Source: Forficula auricularia (lineage: Eukaryota; Arthropoda; Insecta; Dermaptera; Forficulidae). From it: a stretch of 64,000 bases of DNA. Of the stretch, positions 5,647-61,277 are shown in pieces (the first letter of the stretch is position 1; each line of letters opens with the position of its first letter). The stretch spans positions 248,001-312,000 of the forward strand of contig JALMQS010000916.1 of assembly GCA_024734495.1 (NCBI GenBank). The letters are read 5' to 3'. A model generated the notes under the pieces. The model searched no databases, was not told the DNA's origin, and worked only from the letters and a program-made list of their open reading frames with translations. A program made the position numbers and the translations under genes.

Positions 5647-5890
5647 TTAAATTGAAAGTTTTTGTGCCGAGGGTAGCAGAATTTTTATATATTGAAGGAG
5701 ACAATAAAAGAGAGAGTCTATAGTGCTGGAATTTTAAATTTTATTTGTAACGAGGCTATAGTTTCGAGGGCTTTGCGCTCTTCCTCAGTCTATTACAATT
5801 GATTCACTGGCAAAGCCCTCGAAACTATAGTCTCGCTACAAATAAAATTTATAATTCCAGCAGAAGACACTCTTTTATTGTCTCCTTCAA
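5647..5890 (-). mobile_element. Penelope-type foldback element A
   Basis: A tail starting TTAAATTGAAAGTTTTTG (5647) is followed by inverted arms at about 5692-5776 and 5813-5890, beginning TTGAAGGAGACAATAAAAG and ending with its complement. The left arm carries a minus-strand hammerhead-like core (5761-5788: CTGAGGA box, 6-bp-class stem, GAAAC). Its stem I complement (TTGTAAT with GTTACAA) lies just outside. The right arm keeps only the GAAAC half. Unlike copies B-D I cannot see a clear target duplication, so this copy may be older or rearranged at its right end. Confidence 0.7.
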
Positions 5891-7000: not shown

Positions 7001-7305
7001 AAGCGCTAAACCATAATAAAAATCATAATAACTATAATAATCAATTCTATTCTAACAATATTAAACAAATGCGATTCTCCTTCCCGTCTTATTTAGACCT
7101 TAAATTTTTTAAATATTATTTTTAAATAAATACATACAAATCTTTATTTAAAATCAATTTAAATTGAAGGGAAAACAAACATCTATTGATGCTACACAGG
7201 CAGAAGAGGGTTTATCTCACATGGCTTAAGAAAAATTATATAAATTACATTTTTTTCTACAAACAAAATCATTTTATAAACTATACTTAAAATACTTTTA
7301 TTTTT

Positions 7306-7835
7306 CACAAAGAGAAACAAAGAGTGTCCTCTGCTTGATGCAAATAAACATATACACATATATATCAAGATGATATATCTGTATATATATATTATTTATT
7401 TGTTTGAGACTATAGTTTCGAAGACTTGGTCTTCATCATCAGTCTTTCTTCAACTATAAATGCTTTTCATGAGTCAATATCATATGGATATTGATAAGTT
7501 CCTTCGTCACTGGAATGCTAGAAACTCAACATTAAGACACACCCTAGGAGTGTCTTTGTTAGTTTCTAGCATTCCAGTGACGAAGGAACACTCAAGTTTT
7601 CAATATCCATATGATATTGACTCCATGAAAAACATTTATAATTGAAGAAAGACTGATGATGAAGACCAAGCTTCGAAACTATAGTCTCAAACAAATAAAT
7701 AATATATATATACAGATATATCATCTTGATATATATGTGTATATGTTTATTTGCATCAAGCAGAGGACAACCTCTTTGTTTCTCTTTGTGAATCAACAAC
7801 TCTGCTACTCTCGGCAAAACAAAAACTTTTCAATT
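7306..7835 (+). mobile_element. Penelope-type foldback element B with two hammerhead-like cores
   Basis: A near-perfect inverted repeat spans 7306-7790 with its centre near 7546. A single-copy tail follows at 7791-7835, which is the reverse complement of the TTTTTGCCGAGAGTAGCAG tail of copies C and D. Perfect 12-bp duplications ACTTTTATTTTT flank the whole unit (7294-7305 and 7836-7847). Both arms carry a hammerhead-like core: minus strand 7415-7442 (CTGATGA, U, GAAGAC-CAA-GTCTTC, GAAAC) and plus strand 7653-7679, where one stem II base is lost. GAAAC is followed by TATAGTC in both. The open frames across it are by-products of the palindrome. Confidence 0.85.
7415..7442 (-). ncRNA. Hammerhead-ribozyme-like core (element B, left arm)
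   Basis: Read on the minus strand: CTGATGA, one extra U, a perfect 6-bp stem II GAAGAC/GTCTTC with CAA loop, then GAAAC and TATAGTC. GAAAC-TATA-GTC can form the very short stem III (AC/GU) next to cleavage residue C. Stem I is weak here (GA/UC only). The extra nucleotide before stem II departs from the textbook core, so activity is uncertain. Confidence 0.55.
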
Positions 7836-13090: not shown

Positions 13091-13347
13091 AAGTAGGTTA
13101 TAATGAAAGGCAGTCCATAAATTATTTAAATTTTATTCAAATTCCGACGTTTCGGAGACCTTTTCTCTCATTCTTCAAGGTATTGAATAGTTATTGATGG
13201 GTGAGAATAACTCGACTCCCATTTATCTCTATTTTCAGTGATAACAACAATATTAAAATACTTTTCAACATTATATCATAAGTTAACTTAATTTATGGAC
13301 TGCCTTTCATTATAACATACTTATTTCGCTTACCAGTCCGTCTTTCT
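13091..13347 (+). mobile_element. Penelope-type foldback element E
   Basis: Inverted arms lie at 13091-13125 and 13288-13323 (GAAAGGCAGTCCATAAATTA and complement). A tail containing TACCAGTCCGTCTTTC (13331-13346) follows at the right end; it is the complement of the tail of element F. A minus-strand hammerhead-like core (13148-13178: TTGAAGA, stem with GTCTC, GAAACGTCGG) lies between the arms. Flanks AAGAAAAATAAACAA (from 13075) and AAGAAAATAAATAAA (from 13348) are an approximate target duplication. The C-to-T change in box one would weaken a ribozyme. Confidence 0.7.
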
Positions 13348-26049: not shown

Positions 26050-26365
26050 TTTAGGCTGGATATTGGGATCTTGGACTTGAGAAAATAATTAAAAGCTAAT
26101 TTTCCAAAAGTTGCAACACGTTTCGTCGTATATTTTCCGACTTCTTCAGGCAATTTTTAGGATCATATTTCTCGTTGATAGAAATATACAGATCTTTAGA
26201 CTGGATTTTGCAATGACATAATTGACAAGGCTTAAACAAACTTAATATACAATTTATTAAACAAAATAAATAAAAATCTCAAACAAAATTGATCGTTCAA
26301 AGAAAAGTCCAAGATCCCAATATCCAGCCTAATCATTTTCTAAGATGGACCATAACAACCCAAAT
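26050..26365 (+). mobile_element. Penelope-type foldback element G
   Basis: Inverted arms TTTAGGCTGGATATTGGGAT (26050) and ATCCCAATATCCAGCCTAA (to 26333) enclose ~230 bp. A 32-bp tail (26334-26365) lies outside the right arm. Flanks ATACTAAAATA at 26039-26049 and 26366-26376 are a perfect 11-bp duplication placed exactly outside the tail. The minus-strand core at 26119-26149 is hammerhead-like: CTGAAGA, A, GTCG/CGAC stem, GAAAC, then GTGTT. Stem I is AAAATTGC paired with GCAACTTTT. There are no coding frames. Confidence 0.8.
26119..26149 (-). ncRNA. Hammerhead-like core (element G)
   Basis: On the minus strand GCCTGAAGAAGTCG, a nine-base loop, then CGACGAAACGTGTTGC. Boxes CUGANGA and GAAAC flank a 4-bp stem II with one extra A. 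AC/GU can form the minimal stem III with U as residue 17, and TTGC/GCAA forms stem I. All three helices can be drawn, although they are short. Confidence 0.5.
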
Positions 26366-30729: not shown

Positions 30730-31640
30730 TATTCTTAATTAATTTGATTTGTTTTAGTTTAGTTTAATGAAACGATTTTTTTTATTACTTAGAAAGAGTC
30801 AATATATTTGCTATTTTTATTGGTGGAAATTTATTGTCTTTCATATTTTCTTACTGCATTTAAAAATTTACTCAAGATCGAAAACCCAAAATCTAATCAG
30901 TTCTTAGTTTTGAAAACACGCAAACATTTTCCACTAGATTGAACTTTCTCCTATCTTTCATTCTCTAGTTACCATATTTGTAGCTGACGGGATTGTCAAC
31001 TACTGGGGGTTGCTTGATTTAAGTCTTAAATTTAAATTTCGTAGAGGGGGTTGGATCAATTGACAAGTGACGGTCATAGGCAAAGGATTCAATGGATTGA
31101 ATAGAAATAGAGAGAATTTATAAAATGTCATTATACATCCTCAAAATTGAAATTAATTATAATTATATGTGACAAAGATTTTAAATTATTTAAATTAGAT
31201 AAACTTTTATATATTTTGAAATGTCAGACCGGGGTGAGAAAATTCGAATGTTTGATTTTACAGGGTAACTATTCCGTGGAAATTAAATAAAATTTTATAA
31301 CTAAAAGAAGAGCTGCTGTCAGCTCCAATATTCAAAGTAAATAAATAAAATTAAAATAATTGGTGAATCTATTCTCCAGTCGCTTGGTAAGCTTCATTAG
31401 ATAGATGAATTAATTATCCAAAAACAACATGGATGTTATGAATGAAAGAAAAAAAATCCTTCATAGTAAAATTCTTCCAAGGGTTGTATTTAAAGGGAGA
31501 GCGGAGCACCCTTTTCCCCCTCTCTAATTTAGATAGGCGGAGTGTAATATCCGGACTCTTTTTTCTTACTCATAACATAAAAAAATTATAAAAGACTTTT
31601 GACCACGATTATCAATTCTTGGAGATGCTTTACTGATTAC
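30730..31640 (+). other. Presumed intron of the cyclin D gene, no other exon seen
   Basis: AT-rich sequence up to the splice acceptor. No further cyclin-box exon could be recognised here or elsewhere on the left side of the window, so the preceding exon is either beyond it or too short or diverged to see. Confidence 0.45.
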
Positions 31641-31662
31641 AATTTGTTTGTTTCTTTTACAG
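31641..31662 (+). other. Splice acceptor of the terminal cyclin D exon
   Basis: A T-rich tract ending TTTGTTTCTTTTACAG gives a strong 3' splice site, with AG at 31661-31662. Protein similarity begins just after it. The exon starts with two bases of a split codon (phase 1 intron). Confidence 0.8.
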
Positions 31663-32036
31663 AGCTGCATTTTCTCGCTGTGAAACCGTCGACGATCGCC
31701 GCCTCGTGTCTGGTAGCCGCCTCCCGAGGATTACGTGTCGATTGGGACAGTTTCTCCACGCTAAGCCAAATGATTCCCGATCTGAACAGAAACGACGTGG
31801 ATCAGGGGGTTTACATCATTGAACAGGCAATTTTCAATCAACTTCGCCAGCAACAGCTTCAACAACAACAGCCACAAGAAATTACAACGCCGACAACAAA
31901 TACAACAACCTTATCTTCAACGACAACGAGTACAAATAAGTTAAATTCATCACTAGACAATGTATCTGATATAGGTTCAGATGATGAAACATCCCAGCCA
32001 GCGACACCGAAAGATGTTCAGGATATTGACTTTTAG
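31663..32036 (+). CDS. CycD: Cyclin D, C-terminal coding exon (partial gene)
   Basis: Terminal exon of a G1/S cyclin D, the regulatory subunit of CDK4/6 that drives Rb phosphorylation in the nucleus. After the split first codon it encodes 123 residues. Residues 1-58 (FLAVKPSTIAASCLVAASRG, then SQMIPDLNRNDVDQG) align with the last helices of the second cyclin fold, where vertebrate D cyclins have PSMVAAGSVVAA. Residues 59-72 are a glutamine-rich run, followed by a Thr/Ser/Asn-rich linker and an acidic segment DNVSDIGSDDETSQ. The end, ATPKDVQDIDF, matches the C-terminus of cyclin D1 (TPTDVRDVDI), whose Thr286 phosphorylation directs export and degradation; the equivalent Thr codon is 32004-32006. 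The stop is TAG at 32034-32036. Earlier exons, with the LxCxE motif and first cyclin box, are not visible. Family assignment is firm; exact orthology is inferred. Confidence 0.88.
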
Positions 32037-36800: not shown

Positions 36801-37290
36801 ATTTCAGGTCGATTTATACATGCTAGAAAACCCCGCAATAGCCCAGTATATAGGGGAGTTTCAGCTTACATTAATTGCGGGAAAATATTTTTTCTACGAT
36901 CGTTTGGTATGATGTGGGTATGCCAAATCTAAGTTTGCGACCTCGAAAGTGTGAGGGACAACTTTTGGTGGCCGAAAAATCTCGAAATTTTCGGAATTTA
37001 ACCCAAAAATTTGCATATTTAATGGATTGGGTTGGAGTCGAAGATATCTGTAGAATTGCATCCAGGGTGGAAATAGAATGTTTGGAAGATTCTCAGCGCA
37101 GATTCGAACCATATTCGAGAGAGGAGTCAATTTAAATCTTATACAGAATAAGAAGTAAAATAGCGTCTGGGTCTGAAGAGAAAACCAAGCTAGCTTGCAA
37201 TGGCACAAGCATTGTAGAGAAAAAAAATACTTAATTTTGAATTTTAACATTAAAAAAAATATATAAATAAAGAATGGATAAATAAATTAT
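33884..37290. other. ~3.4 kb with no supported gene
   Basis: AT-rich, with a G-run at 36430-36443 and text such as CGCTTATATCTCAAAAACAA that recurs in several repeats here. Overlapping short frames at 36330-37250 are on both strands and unrecognised; this part is probably decayed mobile DNA next to the LINE. Confidence 0.4.
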
Positions 37291-37294
37291 ATTT

Positions 37295-39234
37295 ATGAAT
37301 ACTTGGTTTGGTAGACAATGCGCAGATTCCGTCCGTGAAAAAAACAAATCTTTTCAGAAATGGCAACTTTCACGGCTAGAATGTGACCGAGTTGCATTTA
37401 CCAAATCGCGAAGCTCATGCAAAAAAATTATCTCTGAGGCAAAGAAATCATTCGACCAGAGGATAGCAGACCGTCTCGCATCTTGCCCCAATGGAAAACG
37501 GGCCTTTTTCTCGTTACATAAGGCAATAAATAGAAATTTCGAGTCCCCCTCACTTCCGCCCCTCTTTCACCCAAATGGTTCAGTAGCCACGACCCCCGCT
37601 GAAAAAGCCGAATCACTAGCATCCTATTTCGCAACTAACTCCACTTTAGATGACAAAGGGCTTAACCCGCCCACTTATACCCCCAAACCAACCTCATGGG
37701 CAAAATAATTTTCAGGCCCCAAATAATCATAAAAGCCATTAATAAATTAAATTCCAAATCCGCCGCTGGCCCAGATAACATCCCACCAATTGTCATTAAA
37801 AATGCGCCCCTGAACTTGCCCCTATCTTATCCAAGCTATTCCAACTCTCTTACGAGTCGGGCATATTCCCCAAAAGCTGGAAAATAGCCAGAGTCACACC
37901 TATTCTAAAAAAGGAGACACATCACAAATCTCTAATTACAGGCCTATCTCGATCACCTCTGTTCTTTCCAAATTAATGGAATTAGTCATAAACCAACACG
38001 TGATTCATCACTTAGAAAACAATAAATTAATTCACGATAGACAATATGGATTCAGACAAAATCGTTCCACAGGCGACATCTTAACCTATGTCACCCACAC
38101 CTTGAACAATACTCTAGAGGCCGGAAAAGAAACCCTCGCTGTAGCCCTTGATATCTCCAAAGCTTTTGACCAGGTTTGGCACAAAAATCTTCTTGCCAAA
38201 CTACCAGCCTTTGGATTCACACCAACACTTCGCAAATGGATAGAAAGCTTTCTGACAAACCGAAGTATAAAAGTTGTGGTGGATGGAACATCATCTGAAT
38301 CGTTCTCCACAAACTCTGGTGTTCCCCAAGGCTCTGTAATCTCCTCCACACTCTTCCTTATTTATATAAACGACCTTATTGATCAAACGGCAAACCCCAC
38401 TCATTGTTACGCCGACGATAGCACTCTACACGGCAAACCCTCTCTCCCAAATAATCGAATCAATATTGCCTCCTCAATTACTCTCGACTTAGACAAACTG
38501 AATAAATGGGGCTCTCAAAATTTAGTTAACTTTAATTCAAATAAGACTCAATGTTGTCTAATTTCTAGGCGCGAAAATAGAGATTTCCCTGATATTCACT
38601 TCGATTCGAATACCCTGAAAATGTGTGACAGCCTATCCATGTTGGGCGTCTCTGTCGCATCTGACCTGTCTTGGAATGAACACATCTCCTCTGTGGCGAA
38701 ATCTGCAGCAAGGAAGATTGGCTTCTTATTCAGGTCCAAGCGATTTTACAAACCCCCACAACTTCTCACCATCTACAAGGCCCAAATCCGCCCCTGTCTC
38801 GAATACGGCTCTCATCTATGGAGAGGAGCCTCAAAATATTCTCTTGCTACCCTTGATGCAATTCAGAAACGAGCCGTCAGGCTAATTGACGATTCTACCC
38901 TCACCGACTCCCTCGACTCGCTAGCTCATCGAAGAGATGTCTCTGCCCTTTCCCTTTTCTATAGATACTATCACGGCAGGTGCTCTGACGAGATAAAATC
39001 AATAATTCCCCCCAAAGCATGCTTTGCACGCAGCACACGTTTTGCCGACTCCCAACACTCTTTCGCTGTCAAATTGGAAAAGTGCCGGACCACTTCATTC
39101 GCGAATACATATATCCCCATGACTTCAAGGAACTGGAACTCTCTCCCAGCCTCTATCTTTCCCAGCACCTATGATCTTCAAACCTTCAAAACCAGGGTGC
39201 ATAGACACCTGCGTCTACATCCTCTCTCTTAATC
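37295..39234 (+). pseudogene. Non-LTR retrotransposon (LINE) reverse transcriptase, frameshifted
   Basis: Reverse transcriptase of a Jockey/CR1-like LINE. A first frame (37295-37708) gives the pre-RT region (EKNKSFQKWQ ... RIADRLASCPNGKRAFFSLH). A second (37696-37887) has the N-terminal RT motif NKLNSKSAAGPDNIPP. The reading then shifts again in an A-run near 37905 to NYRPISITSV and the long frame 37976-39234. That frame carries ALDISKAFDQVWH (motif A Asp), SGVPQGSV (38313-38336), the YADD active site (38407-38418), a GVSVASDLSW motif and the C-terminal TSRNWNSLPAS. No endonuclease or ORF1 precedes it, so the copy is 5'-truncated as well as frameshifted and is probably dead. Confidence 0.9.
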
Positions 39235-39352: not shown

Positions 39353-40025
39353 GAATTGATTTGGCTTGCTATTTTTATCCTGATAAATAATTGGAGTTGA
39401 AAATAGATATTATATCTACTATATAAATAAATATTATATTTTTTCCTAAGAAGAAATAATTTGCTTCCTAGGGCGACAGATTTTTAGGAGCGAGAAATTT
39501 CAGATTACTTTTAGCAATTCATTTTTATTTTTCGACAATATAAAAAATAAATAATAAATGAAAAAATGTAATCTATAAAATTATTTTTTTATTAAAATTT
39601 TGAGAGAATTTTATCATAAAAATAAAAATAAATAAAAGTGAAATAACGCCCTAATTACATCGATGTTGGACTAAAAGCACTTTGCAAGAAAAACAGCTTC
39701 ACTTGGGAATCCCATCTTCTAAAAAAAATTAGGGGCCTCAAATAACAACTCGCCTAGAGCGCCACTTGTCTTTAGGCCGGCACTGATCATGAGTAATTCT
39801 ATTTTGAATATAAAAGACAAATTCCGATAGAAGTATAGCATTCAAATTTTTATAGAAAATCAAGATAGATGGTGAACTAATAAATCCGGCGTTATGGATT
39901 TTTTTTATTAACATGTCATAAGAGTTATTTGAATTAAACACGATACAATTCGAAAAAAATCACATACCAGGTCCGGATGATCGTTAATTAAATGTGTTGC
40001 TCTCATCATACAGATTATTTTCTTT
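39353..40025. other. No gene; isolated hAT-like terminus
   Basis: At 39749-39786 the minus strand reads CAGTGCCGGCCTAAAGACA then AGTGGCGCTCTAGGCGAG, the style of a hAT end. No partner end with matching 8-bp flanks was found. Confidence 0.35.
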
Positions 40026-40029
40026 AAAA

Positions 40030-40745
40030 AATATATTATTAAAAATGAATTTAGTTTTTTGAAAATTAATATTTTTATTTTTCCCTTGAAATTCTCAATA
40101 ATGTTGATAAGGGTCCCCCCTTTGTATCAACTAACCTTCAAAGAGAGGTTTCTAAAAGTTATTTTTTTCGAGATATTCAAACGAAAATATACATTTCAAA
40201 CTCTCTATAAAATATACTATTTAAAATAATTTTAGTTATTTGAAAATTAATATTTTTTTTCTTGATATTCTCAATCAAGTTGATAAGGATCCCCCCTTTG
40301 TATCAACTAACCTTCAAAGAGAGGTTTCTAAAAGTATTTTTTTGTTCGAGATATTCAAAGAAAAATATACATTTCAATCTCTCTATAAAATATACTATTT
40401 AAAATAAGTTTAGTTTTTTGAAAATTAATATTTCTTTTCACTTTGAAATTCTCAATCAAGTTGATAAGGGTGCCCTCTTTGTTTCAACTATCCTTCAAAG
40501 AGAGGTTTCTAAAAGTAATTTTTTTCGAGATATTCAAACGAAAATATATTTTTTTAACTCTTCAATAAATATACTATTTAAAATTAGTTTAGTTTTATGA
40601 AAATTATTATTTTTTCCCCCTAAAAATTCTGAATCAATTTTATAAGGGTCCCCCCTTTGTATCAAATACACTTCGAAGAAAGGGTTCATGAAGTAATTTT
40701 TTTCCAGATATTCAAACCAAAATATATATTTAACAAAAATGTTAT
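40030..40745 (+). repeat. Four-unit tandem repeat (~178 bp unit)
   Basis: Four head-to-tail units are marked by GTTGATAAGG at 40103, 40279 and 40460 and its diverged form at 40638, a spacing of 176-181 bp. Each has CCCCCCTTTGTATCAACTA, AAGAGAGGTTTCTAAAAGT and TTTTTTCGAGATATTCAAA. Units differ by 10-20%, so the array is not freshly amplified. Related text occurs at 51835-52345. Confidence 0.9.
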
Positions 40746-41115: not shown

Positions 41116-42761
41116 CATATCGTGTTACCTTATTTCCAATATAGGTACGTATATTGAATTTTCCCATCTATTCTTAAGTACAACATTCAAATATGGGAAA
41201 TGCGACTTCGGTTGAGCTGAGGTTTAAAATCTGCGAAATCTGAAATCATAGTTTTTACTTTATTTGTTACTGAGATCATTCATCCGAATATACGCCAGAT
41301 ACAATTTATCGACAATTAATTCTGAATATTTTCATACGCTTTTCAAGTTATGAAGAAAAATCCGATTCAAATCGTTTATTCTATTGGAATTATCTAATAA
41401 AAAGTTTATTTAGAGTCAAAACTTTGAGTGGTAAATTTCTCTATGATATAGTTAGAAGTAATTAATTTTACTTGATAATATTAATTTTTAAAATATACTT
41501 TATTGTCATTGAAATACGTTTCGACAACGATGTGCCATCATCAGTCTGTAAAATTTTTCTTTTATTTTACTTTTTTGTTATTTTCTGTTATAATTTTACA
41601 TGTGGATTTTAAAGATAATTAAAATTTCAATATTGTATTTATTTATATGCATTTTTAACTTTTTTATGTAAAAAAAGAAATACGAGAGGAGGCCTCTTGC
41701 CTAGTGCTTCAAATTTCCCTAATCCGTCACTGGATGTACAACGACCTGTACCTTTTCAAAATTTAGGACTAAAATTAAAGGAAAAACTCAAATATTTCAA
41801 TACTTGGAACGCTCTTTGCAAATTGTAGAGATTTGTTAATTTTCGTCATCTAGTTTCGGCTAGATCGCTGAAACGTGGCAGGAAAAGGTGCACCTATTTA
41901 TTACAAACATTTCTGCTATATTCCAGCTATAATAACATTCAAAGGCTTCCTTATAATGATTGAAATTTCTGTATTTTTCAACTTGGAGTCCCTAAGCTAG
42001 AACCGCTTGACATCTAATCAGTTTAATTATATATTAATTAGGCTCACATGAACCCGTCATCCATTTCGGTTTATTTTTACGCCTTTCAAAATAATAACTA
42101 TGAGAATGGATCAAAAAGCGAGGTTTAAAAACACCACATCGTATAAAGTAAAAATATTTCAATATTTCCGTCACAACTGATTCATGAATAAACATTTGAA
42201 AATTTCATACAAAAGATTCGGTTCAAAATATACTGATATGCATTTCGAATCGACGTATTATTGGTTAACAAGCCTAATTTTTATTTGTTTTCCTAATATG
42301 AACATTCTTGAACCAGAACGAACTTTCTACGATTTCGCGTCGACGCATAATTATCGAAACATTGTTTTAGGATTAATTTTCTCTGACAGTTCCAAACCCA
42401 AATAAGATTTTTTTAATGATATTGATGCAAGAAGATGTTATACTGAAAAAGTGCAACCTCTGTAGTTCAGGGTCCTTTGCATCATGAAGAGAAGGAGTAT
42501 AGAAAGCAATTTCAGGGAGTTGAAGATACCTGTAGATACGGGGACTGAAGGTTATATGTCGCCATGCCTTGAGTGTTTCAGTCTCTACAAGTCATAGGGA
42601 TAAACGATAAACAAATTGGTGAATGTGTTTGTTATGTTAGTTTCTAATTTAATCGAAAAGAGATGTTGAATGTTTTAAAATGTTTTTTTCGCAAACGAAG
42701 GTTTAAAGGAGATTATTTATTTAATCTCGTCAATAACATTTAAGGAAAGCGGTGTCGATTT
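41116..42761. other. No gene; contains one hammerhead-like core
   Basis: AT-rich DNA. The only marked structure is the ribozyme-like motif at 41517-41544. The 73-residue frame at 42184-42405 is not recognised. Confidence 0.4.
41517..41544 (-). ncRNA. Isolated hammerhead-like core
   Basis: On the minus strand CTGATGA, U, GGCA, a six-base loop, TGTC and GAAACGTA. Stem II is four pairs with one G-U. No inverted arm or tail is visible, so this may be a 5'-truncated or decayed copy of the foldback class. Confidence 0.4.
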
Positions 42762-49497: not shown

Positions 49498-49826
49498 TTT
49501 TTTGCAACGAAATTTTCTCTGGAGAGAGACGGACTGGTAGAAACTTTAATTGAATGTAATGGAAGGCAGCCCAGAGGTAGTGAGGAAAGAAAAAATTAAC
49601 ACATATCAAATAAGGTGTAATTTATTGGAATCCTTCCTCCAAGGCAACATTTTATTTGTGTTATTCATTGACCCTTTGAAACCCTGAAGAAGGAGGGAAA
49701 AATCCTCCGAAACGTCGGTTAGAAAGGAAAGGGGTAAGGATTCCAATAAATTACACCTTATTTGATATGTGTTATTAATTTTTTCTTTCCTCACTACCTC
49801 TGGGCTGCCTTCCATTACATTCAATT
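49498..49826 (-). mobile_element. Penelope-type foldback element F
   Basis: A tail beginning TTTTTTGCAACGAAATTTTC and ending GACGGACTGGTAG (49498-49540) precedes inverted arms 49547-49635 and 49736-49826 (GGAAGGCAGCCCAGAGGTAG and complement). Perfect 12-bp duplications ATAATTATTAAT (49486-49497 and 49827-49838) flank the unit. Between the arms, on the plus strand, is a hammerhead-like core (49684-49713). The tail reversed ends in CGTTGCAAAAAA, i.e. with a short A-run, as expected for the 3' end of a retroelement RNA. Confidence 0.87.
49680..49720 (+). ncRNA. Hammerhead-like core (element F)
   Basis: AACC, CTGAAGA, one extra A, GGAGG, a seven-base loop, CCTCC, GAAACGTC, then GGTT. AACC/GGTT forms stem I and GGAGG/CCTCC stem II. 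ACGT between GAAA's last A and C is self-complementary, the arrangement known from hammerheads that work as dimers. The extra A before stem II is the main departure from the canonical core. Confidence 0.55.
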
Positions 49827-52359: not shown

Positions 52360-53870
52360 CTTACTTAATTACTTCCGATGGCCAAGTCGGCCTTGTAGAG
52401 CTTGAGCCTCTCGCGTGATGCCTCTCCATATTCCTCTATCCTGGGCCAATCGCTCCCATCCCACCCCCACGTCAAGCTCTCACAGATCAGGACAATTCAC
52501 CTTGTTGGACTTAATCTTGTACACAAATATAACATCGGAGACAATCATGGAAGATGTAACAGAAGCAAGACAGAAAGTTTCAGCAGTTGAACTGTAGGTA
52601 GTCATGGTCGTATCTCGACAAAGGATTGCCCGAAAGGTATGCTAGATATCTTAACACTTTGTGCTGAATTCTCTCCAGTCTGTCCATGTTAGCCTTTCCG
52701 ATTGGCCTCCAGACTGTTGATGCATACATTAGCAAAGATTTGATTAGTCAAATATAAATATTTAATTGTATTAGGATTTTTAAATGATTTCATGTTTCGA
52801 AATTCAAATCCCCAGCTCCGATTAGCTTTACCTACAATGTAGGCTAGGTGAATTTAAGTTTCGAGTCAAAAATGACTCCCAAGTCTTTAATAGGGTCGAC
52901 TCTACCGCTGTTTATGTTAGTCGAGAGTAAATAATCAAAAGTAATGTGGTTAATACGTCTTGACAAGGTAATAGTGAGACATTTATCTTAAATTGAAAGT
53001 TTTTGCCGAGAGTAGCAGAATTTTTATATATTGAAGGAGACAATAAAAGAGTGTGTCTTCTGCTGAAATTATAAATTTTATTTATTTATAACGAGACTAT
53101 AGTTTCCAGCAGAAGACACACTCTTTTATTGTCTCCTTCAAGAGACATTTATCGAATTTAAGAAACAGCAGGTTCATGTTACACCAATTCATAATTTTAT
53201 TCAAATCGGATTGCATCTTTAGGCAATCTTTTTTCTTTGAAATTTCCAAAAACAGTTTAATGTCATCTGCAAATAGTAGAATGTCACAAAATTCAATTAT
53301 ATGTGTAAAGGACCAAGGTGACTTCCCTGTGGAACTCCTGATGGAGCTATAAACTTACGGGATTTGGTTCCTTTTATTTGTACATAAGAATTCCTATTAG
53401 ATAAATAGTTTTTAAGACATTTAATTATATTGGATGAAAAATTATAATGTTTAAGTTTTAATTTTGTGATTAATTAAATCAAAAGCCTTCTTGAAATCTA
53501 AGTATATTGCATCTAGTTGATTATTTCTATCAAAGCTAGAAAAAATTGAGTTTGTGAATAAAGTTAAGTTGGTGATTGTCGAACGACCAGGAATAAAACC
53601 TTGTTGTTTTTCTGAAATAAATTTTAAGCAAAATCTCAACATTCTGTTAAATATAAGTCTATCCAATCATTTGGTTATCGGACTTATTATTGCCACAGGC
53701 CTGTAGTTGCTTACGTTGTTACGAGCATCACTCCTGAATATGGGAGTTATAAACGTTGTTTTCCATATTTCAGGTAAAACGCCATCTCTCAGAGAATGAT
53801 TAAAATGAATTATATTACGTTTTTTTAATTTCTTCAAGTATTTATTTGTTTTAATAAAAAATTCCCACTA
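52360..53870 (-). pseudogene. Antisense LINE reverse transcriptase relic
   Basis: Reading leftward from about 53830 the minus strand gives GVLPEIWKTTFITPIF, NVSNYRPVAII, the frame 53666-53451 (QQGFIPGRSTITNLTLF; AIYLDFKKAFDLINH with the motif A Asp), SGVPQGSHLGP (about 53345-53311), a frameshift, LLFADDIKLF (about 53276-53255), and after an insertion ITLSRRINHITF and IKDLGVIFDSKL. The end near 52380 (AQDRGIWRGITREAQALQG) resembles the conserved LINE C-terminus. Several frameshifts and the inserted foldback element C show it is dead. Its motifs differ from the LINE at 37.3 kb, so it is another clade. Confidence 0.82.
52988..53141 (-). mobile_element. Penelope-type foldback element C inserted in the LINE
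   Basis: It starts TTAAATTGAAAGTTTTTGCC and ends ATTGTCTCCTTCAA. 12-bp duplications GAGACATTTATC lie at 52976-52987 and 53142-53153. The tail and outer arms match copies A and D, but the central part with the hammerhead-like core has collapsed, leaving GACTATAGTTTCC. Removing it rejoins the LINE reading. Confidence 0.9.
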
Positions 53871-55928: not shown

Positions 55929-57416
55929 AAGAATCTGTCCTAAAAATTAAATTCTTTTTCGTTTAAAATTGATTTCTTAATCTGAACCCGAGCTCATTTT
56001 TGAAAAACAATCCAACTCTTTTCAAAAATAAGATGCTCAAATCTTTATTTTTATATTAAGAAATAAATTGTTACATTTTGTACACATGTTTTATGAAATA
56101 TGGAAAAAATACGAACATAAGAAAACTTTGTAATTTTAAGATAAAGAATAATTTCATTATTTTTCAAATTTTTCTTACATTTTATTTTTATTTTTCTCAG
56201 TAAATTTAATTTAATACAGAAATTTAGAATTAAACATTAGGTACACTTTATTTCCAATATCTTGAAATTACAAAGTTGCTTATGTTCTTATCTAGACACA
56301 CGACAGTGTGTCAGCCAAGTTCGGAAAAACGGGCGACATTTGTATATTTACACGAACCATTTCAAGCTACTTTCGACCCCCCCATAACTCAAAAACTATT
56401 AGACTTACACACTTGAAATTTTGTATGCCTAATAAGAGCCACTAGAACACCTAGAATCCCAAATTTCATGAATAAATCTATTATAGTTCCTGAGTTATTA
56501 AGCTCTGAAAAGTGCCATTTTTAACACTGACTGACTCACTCACTGACATATCAAAAATCTAAAGTACTTCCGCTGATCCTAAAATGCTAAAATTTGGTAT
56601 ACTGGTAGAGTTTGGGCTACAATTAAAGGAAAAAATTGAAAAAGTGAAACTTTCCCTTTTTCAGGACCTAAAATAAAGGGGTGAAATTTATTATAAGCTC
56701 AATTAACATATAGTGAAAATACAATCAAGGTAGAATTCTGAAATTTGGCATACTGGTAAAACTTGGGACATTAATAAAGGAGAAAAAGTGAAAAATCGAA
56801 ACTTTCCCTTCTTCGGGGTCGGAAATGAAGGGTTAAAATATATGAAAAACTGACCGGTATATTAACCGACCAGATATTTTATAAGAATAATTTGATATAT
56901 AGACTGCAACTTTGTAATTTCAAGATATTGGAAATAAAGTGAATCTAATGTTTAATCCTAAATTTCTGTATTAAATTAAATTTATTGAGAAAAATAAAAA
57001 TAAAATGTAAGATAAATTTGAATATAACCGACCAGATATTTTATGAGAAATATTTAATAATTATTGATATAAATTATTAAATGTAATTATTTAGATAAAT
57101 TAAAGGATAAAACTTTTAAAAAATTAATGATATCTGATCAAAAACATAAATGTAAAAAAGGGCCAAGTTCGGTATAAACGGCTTCGCCGACAAAAGAGTT
57201 GATATCTAAACAGGTTCCAAGTTCCATACCAATTGCTTAAATTATAGCTATATGGATGTACAACGTCCTCCAATTGATTTAAAAGAAAATTTGTTACTTT
57301 CTTTAAATTGAAAGTTTTTGCCGAGAGTAGCAGAATTTTTATATATTGAAGGAGACAATAAAAGAGTGTGTCTTCTGCTGGAATTATAAATTTTATTTAT
57401 TTATAACGGAGACTAT

Positions 57417-57445
57417 AGTTTCGAGGGCTTTGCCCTCTTCATCAG
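57417..57445 (-). ncRNA. Hammerhead-ribozyme-like core (element D, left arm)
   Basis: Mirror image of the 57660 core: CTGATGA, A, GAGGGC-AAA-GCCCTC, GAAAC-TATA-GTC. Its stem I has TTGTAAT facing GTTATAA, a G-U pair where the right arm has A-U. Confidence 0.6.
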
Positions 57446-57649
57446 TCTATTACAATGTATTCACAGGAATTAATTTATGAATGAAAGGTTAACATTTTTC
57501 ATGTGGTAAGGTTATAAATTACATAGAGTGGGCAAGTTAAGAATTGAGTTAGAAGTGTCAATTCTTAACTTGCCCACTCTATGTAATTTCTAACCTTACC
57601 ACATGAAAAATGTTAACCTTTCATTCATAAATTAATTCCTGTGAATACA

Positions 57650-57702
57650 TTATAATAGACTGATGAAGAGGGCAAAGCCCTCGAAACTATAGTCTCGTTA
57701 TA
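57650..57702 (+). ncRNA. Hammerhead-ribozyme-like RNA (element D, right arm)
   Basis: TTATAATAGA (stem I), CTGATGA, one A, GAGGGC-AAA-GCCCTC (6-bp stem II), GAAAC-TATA-GTC (2-bp stem III and residue 17), then TCGTTATAA (stem I partner with one bulge). All three helices meet at the expected boxes. Predicted cleavage would follow C at 57694. The minus-strand twin at 57417-57445 and the copy at 5761-5788 have compensating stem I changes. Confidence 0.65.
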
Positions 57703-59847
57703 AATAAATAAAATTTATAATTCCAGCAGAAGACACACTCCTTTATTGTCTCCTTCAAGTTACTTTCTTTGATATTGAATTTATAACTTGGCAAGTTTTA
57801 TATCCAACTAAAATGTTTGTAGTATAAAATAGAACAACTAGTACAGCTAAATTTTAAGCTTGTATTAAATATCATCACGTTAAACATAAGTTATTGACTA
57901 TTCTAACTTGCCAAGTTATAAATTTAATATCAAAGAATGTAACAAATTTTCTTTTAAATTAATTGAAGAAGGTTGTACATCTCTACAACTATGATTTAAG
58001 CAAATGCTATGGAACTTGGGGCCCGTTTAGATCTTAACCCTTTTGTCTGCGAAGCCGTTTATACCGAACTTGGCCCCTTTTTTACATTTATGTTTTTAGT
58101 CATTTTTTCTATATATCAAAAAATGTTTCTACAAAATATAACAATTTATTTCTTATTAAACTGTAATAAATTCCCTAACTTATGACACTTCATTTATTCC
58201 AATCCGATACCTAGAATCTGAAATAAGCCAAGTTTTAGAAAAAGAGAGTAGATGCTAGGTGGCTCGATTTTTTGTCCTTAAGTGAATATAGTAACTATAT
58301 AGTTTGAAACACTATGCTTCTAGGATACTTTTACGCATTAAATTATTATTATTATTTTTGATAGGTCCTCCACCTCTCCATTTTAGCCCTTCCATCCTCT
58401 CGTAGGTGTTGAAAGAGTGATTCAAGTTATTACACTATGTCATATTTTAGCATTCTAGTGTCGTTGAATTTTCCCTATTAGTTAATTTAGCTCATAAATT
58501 TCACTCGTTCATTTTAGATGCCGAAGAAGGGAAAGTTTCAGCTTTTCGATTTCACCCTTTATTAATGTCCCAAAATCTACCATCATGCTAAATCATACTA
58601 AATTTTAGCATTTTTTGTCTTTGAATTTTTACTTAATGAGGATTTAGATTATAAACTTCACTCCTTGATTTAAGCTGAGAGAAAGGAGACGTTTCGTTTT
58701 CCTTCTTTATTAAAGTGCCAAGCTCTACCAATATGTCAATTTTCATCATTCTAAAGTCATTGTATTTTCACTATATGTTCATTAAGGCTATACATTTTAC
58801 CCCTCCATTTTAGATCTTGAAAAAGGGAAAGTTTAGGTTTTTCCCTTTAATTGTACCCCAAACTCTCCAGTATGCCAAATTTCAGCATTCTAGGATCAGC
58901 GGAAGTACTCTAGAATTTTGATGAGTCAGTGAGTGAGTGACGAAAAAGCCTATTTTTGGCTTCTTATAACTATAGAAATATGAAATTTGCTTATGGACCA
59001 GTAGTGAGGAAAAAAAATTCAGCCCTGTACAGGTTTCCAGTGCGAAGTTACCGAGGCGTCAAATTGGCTTGAGTTTCCTCCTGTAGTAAGCTGGGCACTG
59101 CAGTGCCCCAGATCATTAATTTCCCTTTGATAGCGAAAAGATAATGCTTTCAAATTAGTAAACTAGTTTCATGCGATAGTTGAAAAAATTAGATAATGTT
59201 TACAAATTCACCCCCGCTTACGGTATTATATGTAAATAGGTATTTGTTATAACTGAGATAGAATAAGATAAATTAATATTTTTGAACATATAATCATGAT
59301 AAGCAGTTAAAAAATTATTTCATCTCCTTTATCTTTCAATAATGTTCCATTTTAAAAAGTAAATTTTTCCTCTCTGATACCAAGGAGGCAAACATTAATT
59401 ACATATTATTCTTGGGACCTTCAATTCAGTTGTTTAAGACTCACATCCACAGGGGCCTTAGACTCCAACATGTTCACTAAAATTTCTCTTGCTCTTTTCC
59501 TTCGATTCACAATTCAAGGGCCAATCCAGGCCTATGGCGGGTGCAAGAACACCTTTCTTGGTGAAACAGCCCCTCGCATCAATGTCATTTTAAAAAATAT
59601 TATGTTTAGTATTTTTTGTTTAACAATCTCTCTCCTTGTACAACTGCAATCTGCCCTAGTGGGATGATCAATTAGACATAATGATTGAATTTATAAGATT
59701 GGATCTGAGAATTTTATTTATATTAATTTATTTATTTATTTTTCGAGGATCTTAATTCTCTTTTAGAATAGGTATTGATTTTCTTTGTTTGCAAAAAATA
59801 ATAACACAGTTATATTTTTTTCATTTATTTTATTTTATTGTTATTTT

Positions 59848-60192
59848 ACAGTAGAGAAAGAAAAGGACAATGAGATCTGTTTCTTGGACATTAAAATAGT
59901 GAAGAGAAGGAATGGATTGTTGACCGACATATATGAGAAGAAAACAAAGTCTCTCAGAATGTTAAATTATAATTCAGATAATCCAATGGCACATAAGATC
60001 AATACCATTTACAATGAAATAGACAGAATACACAAAATATGCCACCCAAGTTATATAAGAAAGAACATGGAAAAACTAAAAAGTAAAGCTACAAATAATG
60101 GTTATCCGGATGATTTTTGTGAATATGTGGAAAATATATATTATAAAAAAAGACAAAAAGGATTAACGCTGATTCTAGAACTGATCAGGTAA
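59848..60192 (+). pseudogene. Penelope reverse transcriptase, C-terminal (thumb) part
   Basis: After the left arm the frame reads EKEKDNEICFLDIKI, LLTDIYEKKTKSLRMLNYNS, AHKINTIYNEIDRI and KATNNGYPDDFCEYVENI, the region downstream of the RT catalytic palm in Penelope elements (FLDxxI, T-IYxK, LNYxS-HP, NGYP). The palm with its YADD motif is missing through 5' truncation. The frame ends at TAA 60190-60192, where the linker has lost its frame. It cannot make an active RT. Confidence 0.85.
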
Positions 60193-60229
60193 ATTATAAA
60201 CACTCTATTATATATATATACCATATATA

Positions 60230-60681
60230 TCAGATAAAATAAAAAATGTTTTTAAAAACACAATATTAAAATAGGTTTTAAATGTAATAAGCCATTAAAA
60301 CAATTTTATAACAACAAAGACAAGCTAGAAAAGAATGAAAGAAATAATGTGGTATATAGGATAGAGTGTAAGGACTGCGAAAAAATATATATTGGTGAAA
60401 CCAAAAGAAAATTGAAGACAAGATTGATAGAACATGAGAAGTCTGTAATACATGGAAATCTTGTGTCGGCGTTAGCCATACATGCAGTAGATAAGGTTCA
60501 TAATTTTAAATTTGACGACGCAAAAATTTTATACGCTGAAAGTAATACTTTCAAAAGAAAATTCTTTGAATCTATATCTATAAGAAAAAATCTAGAAAGA
60601 ACTGTGAACTTCAAGGTAGATACAGAAAATAATAGCAGATATTATTCTGGAATATTGAATAAGATCAGCGAAAGAAATTAG
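60230..60681 (+). pseudogene. Penelope GIY-YIG endonuclease domain
   Basis: The linker (ISDKIKNVFKNTILK, then a one-base slip in an A-run near 60268 and KCNKPLKQFYNNKDKLEKNE) leads into VYRIECKDCEKIYIGETKRK, LKTRLIEHEKSV and FKRKFFESISIRKN. These give the GIY-YIG signature (VYRI..YIGET), the CxxC pair of the Penelope linker, the conserved Arg (KTR) and the catalytic Glu (FES). The domain itself, 60349-60681, is uninterrupted and ends TAG. In Penelope elements it nicks target DNA for reverse transcription. It is intact in sequence but cut off from the RT. Confidence 0.9.
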
Positions 60682-61103
60682 TATTGTGATGGATTTTTTA
60701 TTTATTTTTTATTTTTTCCGTGTGTGGACAGAAGGACATTTTAATGTTTTTTGATTAAATTTTAGAATATTAGGGGGATACTGGGTTGGCAATACATTTT
60801 AGGGGATTTAATGTTTCGGGATGTGTATTCACTGGTGCTTTGTGTGTGAAAATTGGAGTTCTTTGTGTTATCGTATAGATCAGTAAATAGTAAAAATAGA
60901 AAAAGGAAATAATTGTGATATGTATTCAGATGAATCAGAGTGTGATTTGATTGGATCAAGTAAATTTAAGATTGTTCAAGGTATGTTTGATGCTTTTTTT
61001 GAGGTAAGAAAGAATGTAAATAATGTAAAAAAGATGTGATATGTTCATTTGTTTATAAAATTATAGATATTGGAAATAATGAAAGGATGGTTTTATTTTT
61101 AGG

Positions 61104-61140
61104 CTGATGATGACATGAATGTATATGTCGAAACGTCCCT
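61104..61140 (+). ncRNA. Hammerhead-like core of the Penelope element
   Basis: AGG, CTGATGA, one U, GACAT, an eight-base loop, ATGTC, GAAACGTC, CCT. Stem II is five pairs, stem I at least three (AGG/CCT), and ACGT is self-complementary as in dimeric hammerheads. It lies ~420 bp after the endonuclease stop and just inside the right arm, tying the ribozyme motif directly to the Penelope gene. Confidence 0.6.
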
Positions 61141-61277
61141 TGATATAACAATAAAATAAAATAAATGAAAAAAATATAACTGTGTTATTATTTTTTGCAA
61201 ACAAAGAAAATCAATACCTATTCTAAAAGAGAATTAAGATCCTCGAAAAATAAATAAATAAATTAATAATGATTGAA

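Follow-up and report, generated by a model that had tools for sequence, protein, structure and literature searches.

A short sequence motif that recurs throughout the genome of the earwig Forficula auricularia is a hammerhead-type and probably self-cutting small RNA of Penelope-like elements (PLEs) and of their palindromic debris. We consider it very likely that the copies represent type I hammerheads of the minimal form, carried as ribozymes by Penelope-like retrotransposons, with a predicted cleavage site. The identification as a hammerhead-type RNA, already proposed in an earlier note on the stretch of 64,000 nucleotides analysed here (the window), is supported by the letters of the core, by covarying stems I and II, and by a 2-bp remnant of stem III. 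The kind of RNA is known, and the extra letter that nearly all the copies examined carry at one junction makes them a modest variant. The copies in the window and the elements that hold them are listed in the table.

Table. Hammerhead copies and associated elements in the window (model E, E value with the covariance model described in the text)
Feature	Position	Strand	Model E	Details
Element D, right hammerhead	57642..57710	+	1.1e-7	Stem I 5' strand, CTGATGA, extra A, stem II GAGGGC/GCCCTC, GAAAC TATA GTC, stem I 3' strand; predicted cleavage after 57694
Element D, left hammerhead (inverted copy)	57403..57453	-	3.6e-7	
Element D	57346..57758	.		Near-perfect palindrome, 413 bp, 96% identity, two head-to-head hammerheads
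Second foldback	7304..7792	.		489 bp, 92% identity; hammerheads 7400-7450 (-) and 7645-7694 (+)
Element A, hammerhead relic	5741..5796	-	0.0048	GCC replaces the GTC cleavage triplet
Hammerhead relic	13138..13186	-	1.1e-4	C3 to T (TTGAAGA)
Solo hammerhead	26107..26157	-	1.8e-8	GAAAC GT GTT^GCAA, stem I TTGC/GCAA
Solo hammerhead	41507..41552	-	4.7e-7	GAAACGTA, extra T
Solo hammerhead	49676..49724	+	2.1e-10	AACC / CTGAAGA / extra A / GGAGG..CCTCC stem II / GAAACGTC^GGTT
Hammerhead of the window PLE	61096..61145	+	7e-10	Extra T, GAAACGTC^CC
5'-truncated PLE	59721..61268	+		Extent inferred from inverted arms
GIY-YIG endonuclease frame of the PLE	60256..60681	+		PF01541, E 4.7e-6
D-family foldback stub, short	53031..53141	-		Outer arms only; ribozyme 5' half absent; read from sequence

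Other contents of the window include a LINE-like element with two adjacent frames (37286-39232), of which the second encodes a reverse transcriptase domain (PF00078, E 5e-36), and a tandem repeat of four 178-bp copies (40021-40731). An exon-like frame at 31581-32036, similar to the cyclin C-terminal domain (PF02984, E 1.9e-5), was the only likely host gene among six frames tested. Protein searches with this frame and with the GIY-YIG frame returned nothing at E<=0.001.

The earlier note had listed ten loci as sharing one motif, which was confirmed: nine match the pattern CTGANGA-N8-30-GAAAC exactly, and the tenth, at 13148-13178 (-), is a variant with TTGAAGA at the core (C3T). The type I hammerhead core, C3-U-G-A-N-G-A9 plus G12-A-A, is accordingly present in all but this one. 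The count of nine in the window compares with 0.46 expected, and the largest count among 100 window shuffles was 3. A covariance model built on 24 cluster representatives recovered all ten loci (E from 2.1e-10 to 0.0048), the next-best match having an E of 0.25; three of the ten are among its 24 rows, and the others have relatives there. The core is invariant in the representatives because the search pattern demanded CTGANGA and GAAAC. In the whole genome (1.06 Gb, 845 contigs) the core pattern was found 61,074 + 61,364 times (about 122,000), compared with 2,399 + 2,395 (about 4,800) for the reversed pattern. Eighteen stretches of 10 kb taken at fixed coordinates (180 kb) contained 18 model matches at E<0.01, or 100 per Mb, in a sample of which one stretch (L023) also supplied three of the model rows.

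Pairing was assessed on the same 24 representatives, whose criteria of choice (register 1, stem II no shorter than 3 bp, the better stem I) favour structure. Among them, 87.5% of cells pair, compared with 51.7% after shuffling, a level that none of 500 shuffles reached; this contrast is an upper estimate, because the representatives were selected for structure and the shuffles ignore relatedness. Covariation, which the earlier note had expected, was indeed found in stem II and in the three proximal pairs of stem I, with a score of 0.888 against 0.221 for shuffled data and at most 0.219 for slid partners. A permutation test showed covariation at each of stem I pairs 1-3 and of stem II pairs 2-5, but gave no such support for stem I pairs 4-6. 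The number of pairs changed on both sides was not above the control (7 versus 6.6 shuffled, with 340 of 500 shuffles as high), and RNAalifold, run on the 24 representatives, predicted stem II and not stem I.

The stem I letters on which the earlier note had based its case for compensatory change in elements A and D are as it gave them, namely TTGTAAT/GTTACAA (G-C), TTGTAAT/GTTATAA (G-U) and TTATAAT/GTTATAA (A-U), but they are weak as compensatory evidence. G-U is the commonest state of the varying position in this family (10 of the 14 copies found), so that A and D-right represent single-step changes within one family rather than double compensation. Two-sided covariation arises from the comparison between clusters.

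The cleavage site could be examined independently of the search, since G-T-H was absent from the search pattern. This triplet lies behind GAAAC in 75 of the 77 copies that have a good stem II and one extra nucleotide (GTC 57, GTT 16, GTA 2), which corresponds to the A15.1-U16.1 pair and H17 of the type I cleavage site (GUH). Stem III is reduced to A-C/G-U, with a loop of 0 nt in 50 copies, 4 nt in 22, 1 nt in two and 2 nt in one (n = 75); the 4-nt loop is TATA in 20 of 22. A stem III diminished in this way is a mark of the minimal hammerheads of PLEs. An AATAAA was seen within 42 nt 3' of the predicted cleavage site in 15 of 24 representatives (examples at 61145-61165 and 57700-57712), whereas the 40 nt 5' of that site contained one in 3 of 24; a poly(A) signal and an A-rich start for reverse transcription are both conceivable roles for it.

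The junction between A9 and stem II was studied in 106 distinct matches from the window and 86 loci of the same genome, including 86 of 100 listed pattern places in positional order. Stem II had at least four contiguous pairs in 78 of the 106, whereas shuffled interiors gave a mean of 3.8 and a maximum of 9. Exactly one unpaired nucleotide separates A9 from stem II in 77 of these 78 well-paired copies (51 with A, 26 with T, and neither G nor C), as the earlier note had observed at its ten loci. The 77 copies fall into 22 sequence clusters, and the single canonical copy into another. A single nucleotide is within the range stated for known hammerhead alignments, in which at most one or two are left unpaired where CUGANGA meets its adjoining stems (PMC10085705).

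Genome-wide, the pattern with the extra nucleotide, CTGANGA-W-G...C-GAAAC, had 95,026 matches (reversed control 35), and the pattern without it, CTGANGA-G...C-GAAAC, had 2,052 (reversed control 58). Among 90 strings listed for the latter, 23 were truly canonical, 26 were the usual form with G as the extra nucleotide, 40 had weak stems and one was a tie; 11 of the 23 canonical strings were one sequence, CTGATGA-GCCAAACAATGGC. Copies devoid of the extra nucleotide exist but are rare. The canonical subfamily, CTGATGA-GCCAAACAATGGC-GAAAC, also occurs in minus/plus neighbour pairs (for example C4:724646/725936), and the sole copy read with its flanks (C500:6729, L022) has a palindromic ACTAGT stem III. 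Virus contigs served as an out-group: among the matches listed, a stem II of at least 4 bp was present in 10 of 120 with the extra nucleotide versus 43 of 127 without, many of those without resembling ordinary phage hammerheads. The extra nucleotide thus does not look like a general hammerhead habit, in a comparison confined to virus contigs. We infer that the extra A/U is an inherited feature of nearly all the sampled copies.

The hammerhead of the Poseidon element PAc, in which the open reading frame begins at stem II (PMC11167929), prompted the idea that an extra U is kept to form a start codon (A9-U-G = AUG). The copies do not support this: 12 of the 24 representatives carry A instead, and in the window PLE the frame opened by that AUG ends two codons on.

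The earlier note had also called the copies an unusual subtype. The near-fixed extra nucleotide bears this out in part, but the plus-strand hammerhead of CChMVd, a viroid of plants unrelated to PLEs, is a precedent: it has an unpaired A directly after A9 and self-cleaves, according to PMC3705267. Our literature search, in which the primary descriptions of PLE hammerheads were represented by papers citing them, found no PLE hammerhead population with a near-fixed nucleotide between A9 and stem II, and we make no claim of priority. A tentative proposal, to which we give limited credence, is that these copies form a junction-expanded subtype, in which an A/U insert kept over some 20 PLE-type clusters of one lineage would be a functional adaptation of ribozymes that, having lost stem III as well as loop-loop contacts, work as dimers with the help of a protein.

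Could the copies be inactive relics of genuine hammerhead ancestry, kept by copying, the extra nucleotide accompanying loss of function? Several facts point that way. The extra nucleotide sits in the junction, some copies have core mutations, and PAc, the hammerhead of another PLE, is described as cleaving only in the presence of a PLE protein (PMC11167929). Moreover, at minimum energy the D ribozyme does not take the hammerhead fold: GACU pairs with AGUC, C3-U4 is buried, and the hammerhead fold has -10.1 kcal/mol versus -19.0 for the minimum, the window copy folding alike; of five window copies folded, two had a hammerhead-compatible optimum. Against this stand the self-cleaving viroid hammerhead with its A after A9 and the presence of the extra nucleotide in 22 of the 23 clusters whose stem II reaches 4 bp. 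That it goes along with a constant core and covarying stems would be difficult to account for had the structure never been under selection. We therefore regard loss of function as an unlikely account of the population. With the Rfam models, the window gave no match at the gathering cut-off and, in the 12 matches at E<=10, none to a hammerhead family, which counts against the hammerhead reading. The genome search with RF00163, in which 73 of 118,820 candidates were scored, detected none of 14 controls and is uninformative.

For the preferred reading, minimal ribozymes of PLEs, a physical association with a coding element was sought in the subfamily of the hammerhead at 61104. This copy is located 0.4 kb downstream of the GIY-YIG frame (PF01541), in an element whose arms (59721-59844 and 61145-61268) are inverted, 124 nt long and 100% identical. 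A possible acag splice acceptor (59839-59860) lies ahead of the PLE frame and a short AT-rich gap (60185-60260) interrupts it, perhaps reflecting introns. Searching the genome with the GIY-YIG protein, we scored 150 matches among 8,269 first-look candidates, of which 19, window copy included, were 100% identical. Open frames are up to 828 aa long in this identical group; relatives at 54% identity have them up to 838 aa. Direct tandem PLE copies were found on C755 (three, about 3.2 kb apart), and direct tandem relatives on C96, C137 and C490 (about 3.5-3.8 kb apart).

The exact 34-nt hammerhead of the window PLE occurs 209 times in the genome (reversed control 0). Linkage was computed between 100 listed places of this 34-mer (contigs C4 to C398) and the 64 of 150 GIY-YIG rows up to C398. 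Among GIY-YIG copies of at least 89% identity, 26 of 32 have the 34-mer 427-532 nt downstream on the same strand; among the more distant PLE copies examined, an exact match was linked in 2 of 16 at 62-87% identity and in 0 of 16 below 60%. We conclude that the motif of the 61104 subfamily is part of a Penelope-like element, in whose flanking repeat it lies, so that the link proposed in the earlier note holds for this one subfamily. The D family may be tied to a coding element by analogy only.

Many copies reside in foldbacks. On contigs C1-C3, neighbouring motifs at most 1 kb apart were head-to-head in 23 of 28 pairs, tail-to-tail in 3 and direct in 2. In the fetched stretches, 16 of 18 head-to-head pairs had both ribozymes inside inverted arms of 80.6-98.7% identity, and the other two (L006, L069) join different subfamilies. 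Within a family, the stretch between cleavage site and outer end has a near-constant length (64-73 nt in four D elements, 101-110 nt in five elements of the B family, the type found at 7304-7792). For element D itself it is 64-65 nt; its left copy has one inserted C that shifts distal stem I. The gap between ribozymes varies, from 37 to 214 nt in D and from 89 to 646 nt in B, and up to 967 nt overall. Near-constant outer ends with a variable gap are the pattern that would be expected from reverse transcription with a fixed start and a variable turning point. Element D is nested within the arms of another inverted repeat (57140-57304 and 57932-58097, 88% identity), and a comparable nesting, one hammerhead foldback inside another, was seen at L069.

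The earlier note considered this foldback setting unfamiliar, which did not hold up. For Penelope, PMC3846280 documents pseudo-LTRs in an inverted, head-to-head arrangement whose junctions are palindromic, and minimal hammerheads devoid of helix III are described in PLE pseudo-LTRs (PMC6155905, PMC7761336), so that the arrangement corresponds to documented PLE anatomy.

The orientation of neighbours also bears on retrozymes, small non-autonomous elements in direct tandem that yield circular RNA via type I hammerheads. The type I arrangement, the very high copy number and the many copies with no coding sequence nearby would suit them. Animal retrozymes are, however, described as direct tandem repeats (PMC7229834, PMC7761336), and short direct tandem repeats bounded by hammerheads were not what we found among pairs at most 1 kb apart, 23 of 28 being head-to-head and only two direct; we judge this origin very unlikely. 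Still less credible are foldback DNA transposons or MITE-like elements whose terminal hairpin merely resembles a hammerhead and has no ribozyme role, as near-perfect palindromes of 243-489 bp, and three with long spacers, might suggest, for the covariation tracks the hammerhead junction and not one hairpin alone, core letters are constant between clusters (CTGANGA and GAAAC being required by the pattern, GTH not), a PLE frame accompanies one subfamily, and there is no consistent target-site duplication (a 4-5-nt match in 3 of 16 in a lenient search).

Returning to PLE ribozymes, we propose how they might act. A stem III with a 0-nt loop cannot close on itself, and the self-complementary strands observed (ACGU, ACUAUAGU, and ACUAGU in one copy of the canonical subfamily) fit the pairing of two ribozymes; with a 0-nt loop the palindrome is dictated by the core letters, which leaves the longer loops as the informative ones on dimers. 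Such double hammerheads have already been reported for PLE ribozymes (PMC6466107, PMC7761336). Tandem PLE copies would supply direct ribozyme pairs. In their transcripts, two direct copies would form a double hammerhead by pairing through stem III, whose strands (ACGU or ACUAUAGU) are self-complementary, and this dimer would cut 3' of GUH, possibly aided by the PLE protein, to give unit-length RNA. Reverse transcription would begin at a fixed place 3' of the ribozyme, pass through it for a variable distance and turn back by self-priming or template jumping, giving inverted foldbacks. There the ribozyme would pair with its own complement. Element D as RNA is predicted to form one hairpin (-324.7 kcal/mol, compared with -77.8 for shuffles) in which this pairing takes place, and foldback copies are thus probably silent.

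The closest known relatives are the minimal type I hammerheads of PLEs (Cervera and de la Pena 2014; Lunse, Weinberg and Breaker 2017). As described in PMC6155905, PMC7761336 and PMC6466107, they share with the earwig copies the type I order, CUGANGA and GAAAC, a stem III with few or no extra nucleotides, the association with PLEs, mass occurrence and the fit to dimers. A possible difference is the one unpaired A/U between A9 and stem II in nearly all the earwig copies sampled. The PAc hammerhead of Anolis likewise lies at the junction of pseudo-LTR and ORF of a PLE, and reverse transcription is reported to start inside the template RNA there, as we propose here (PMC11167929). That motif overlaps the start of the ORF, whereas in the one element with a direct upstream hammerhead copy (C219) the exact hammerhead precedes the long open frame by about 0.8 kb. 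Penelope copies of Adineta vaga share head-to-head inverted pseudo-LTRs, palindromic junctions and a proposed self-priming; the word hammerhead is absent from the text describing them (PMC3846280), and the short foldbacks of the earwig are seen without coding sequence.

Minimal hammerheads in PLE pseudo-LTRs are known in thousands of copies in animal genomes (PMC6155905, PMC7761336), and a review of 2020 still described their role as unknown (PMC7761336). The hammerhead population of the window goes unreported by the Rfam hammerhead models. The earwig genome, where one junction variant has about 95,000 pattern matches and was sampled in 22 clusters, offers a natural mutagenesis set, which makes it testable whether the nucleotide after A9 tunes the cleavage of dimers.
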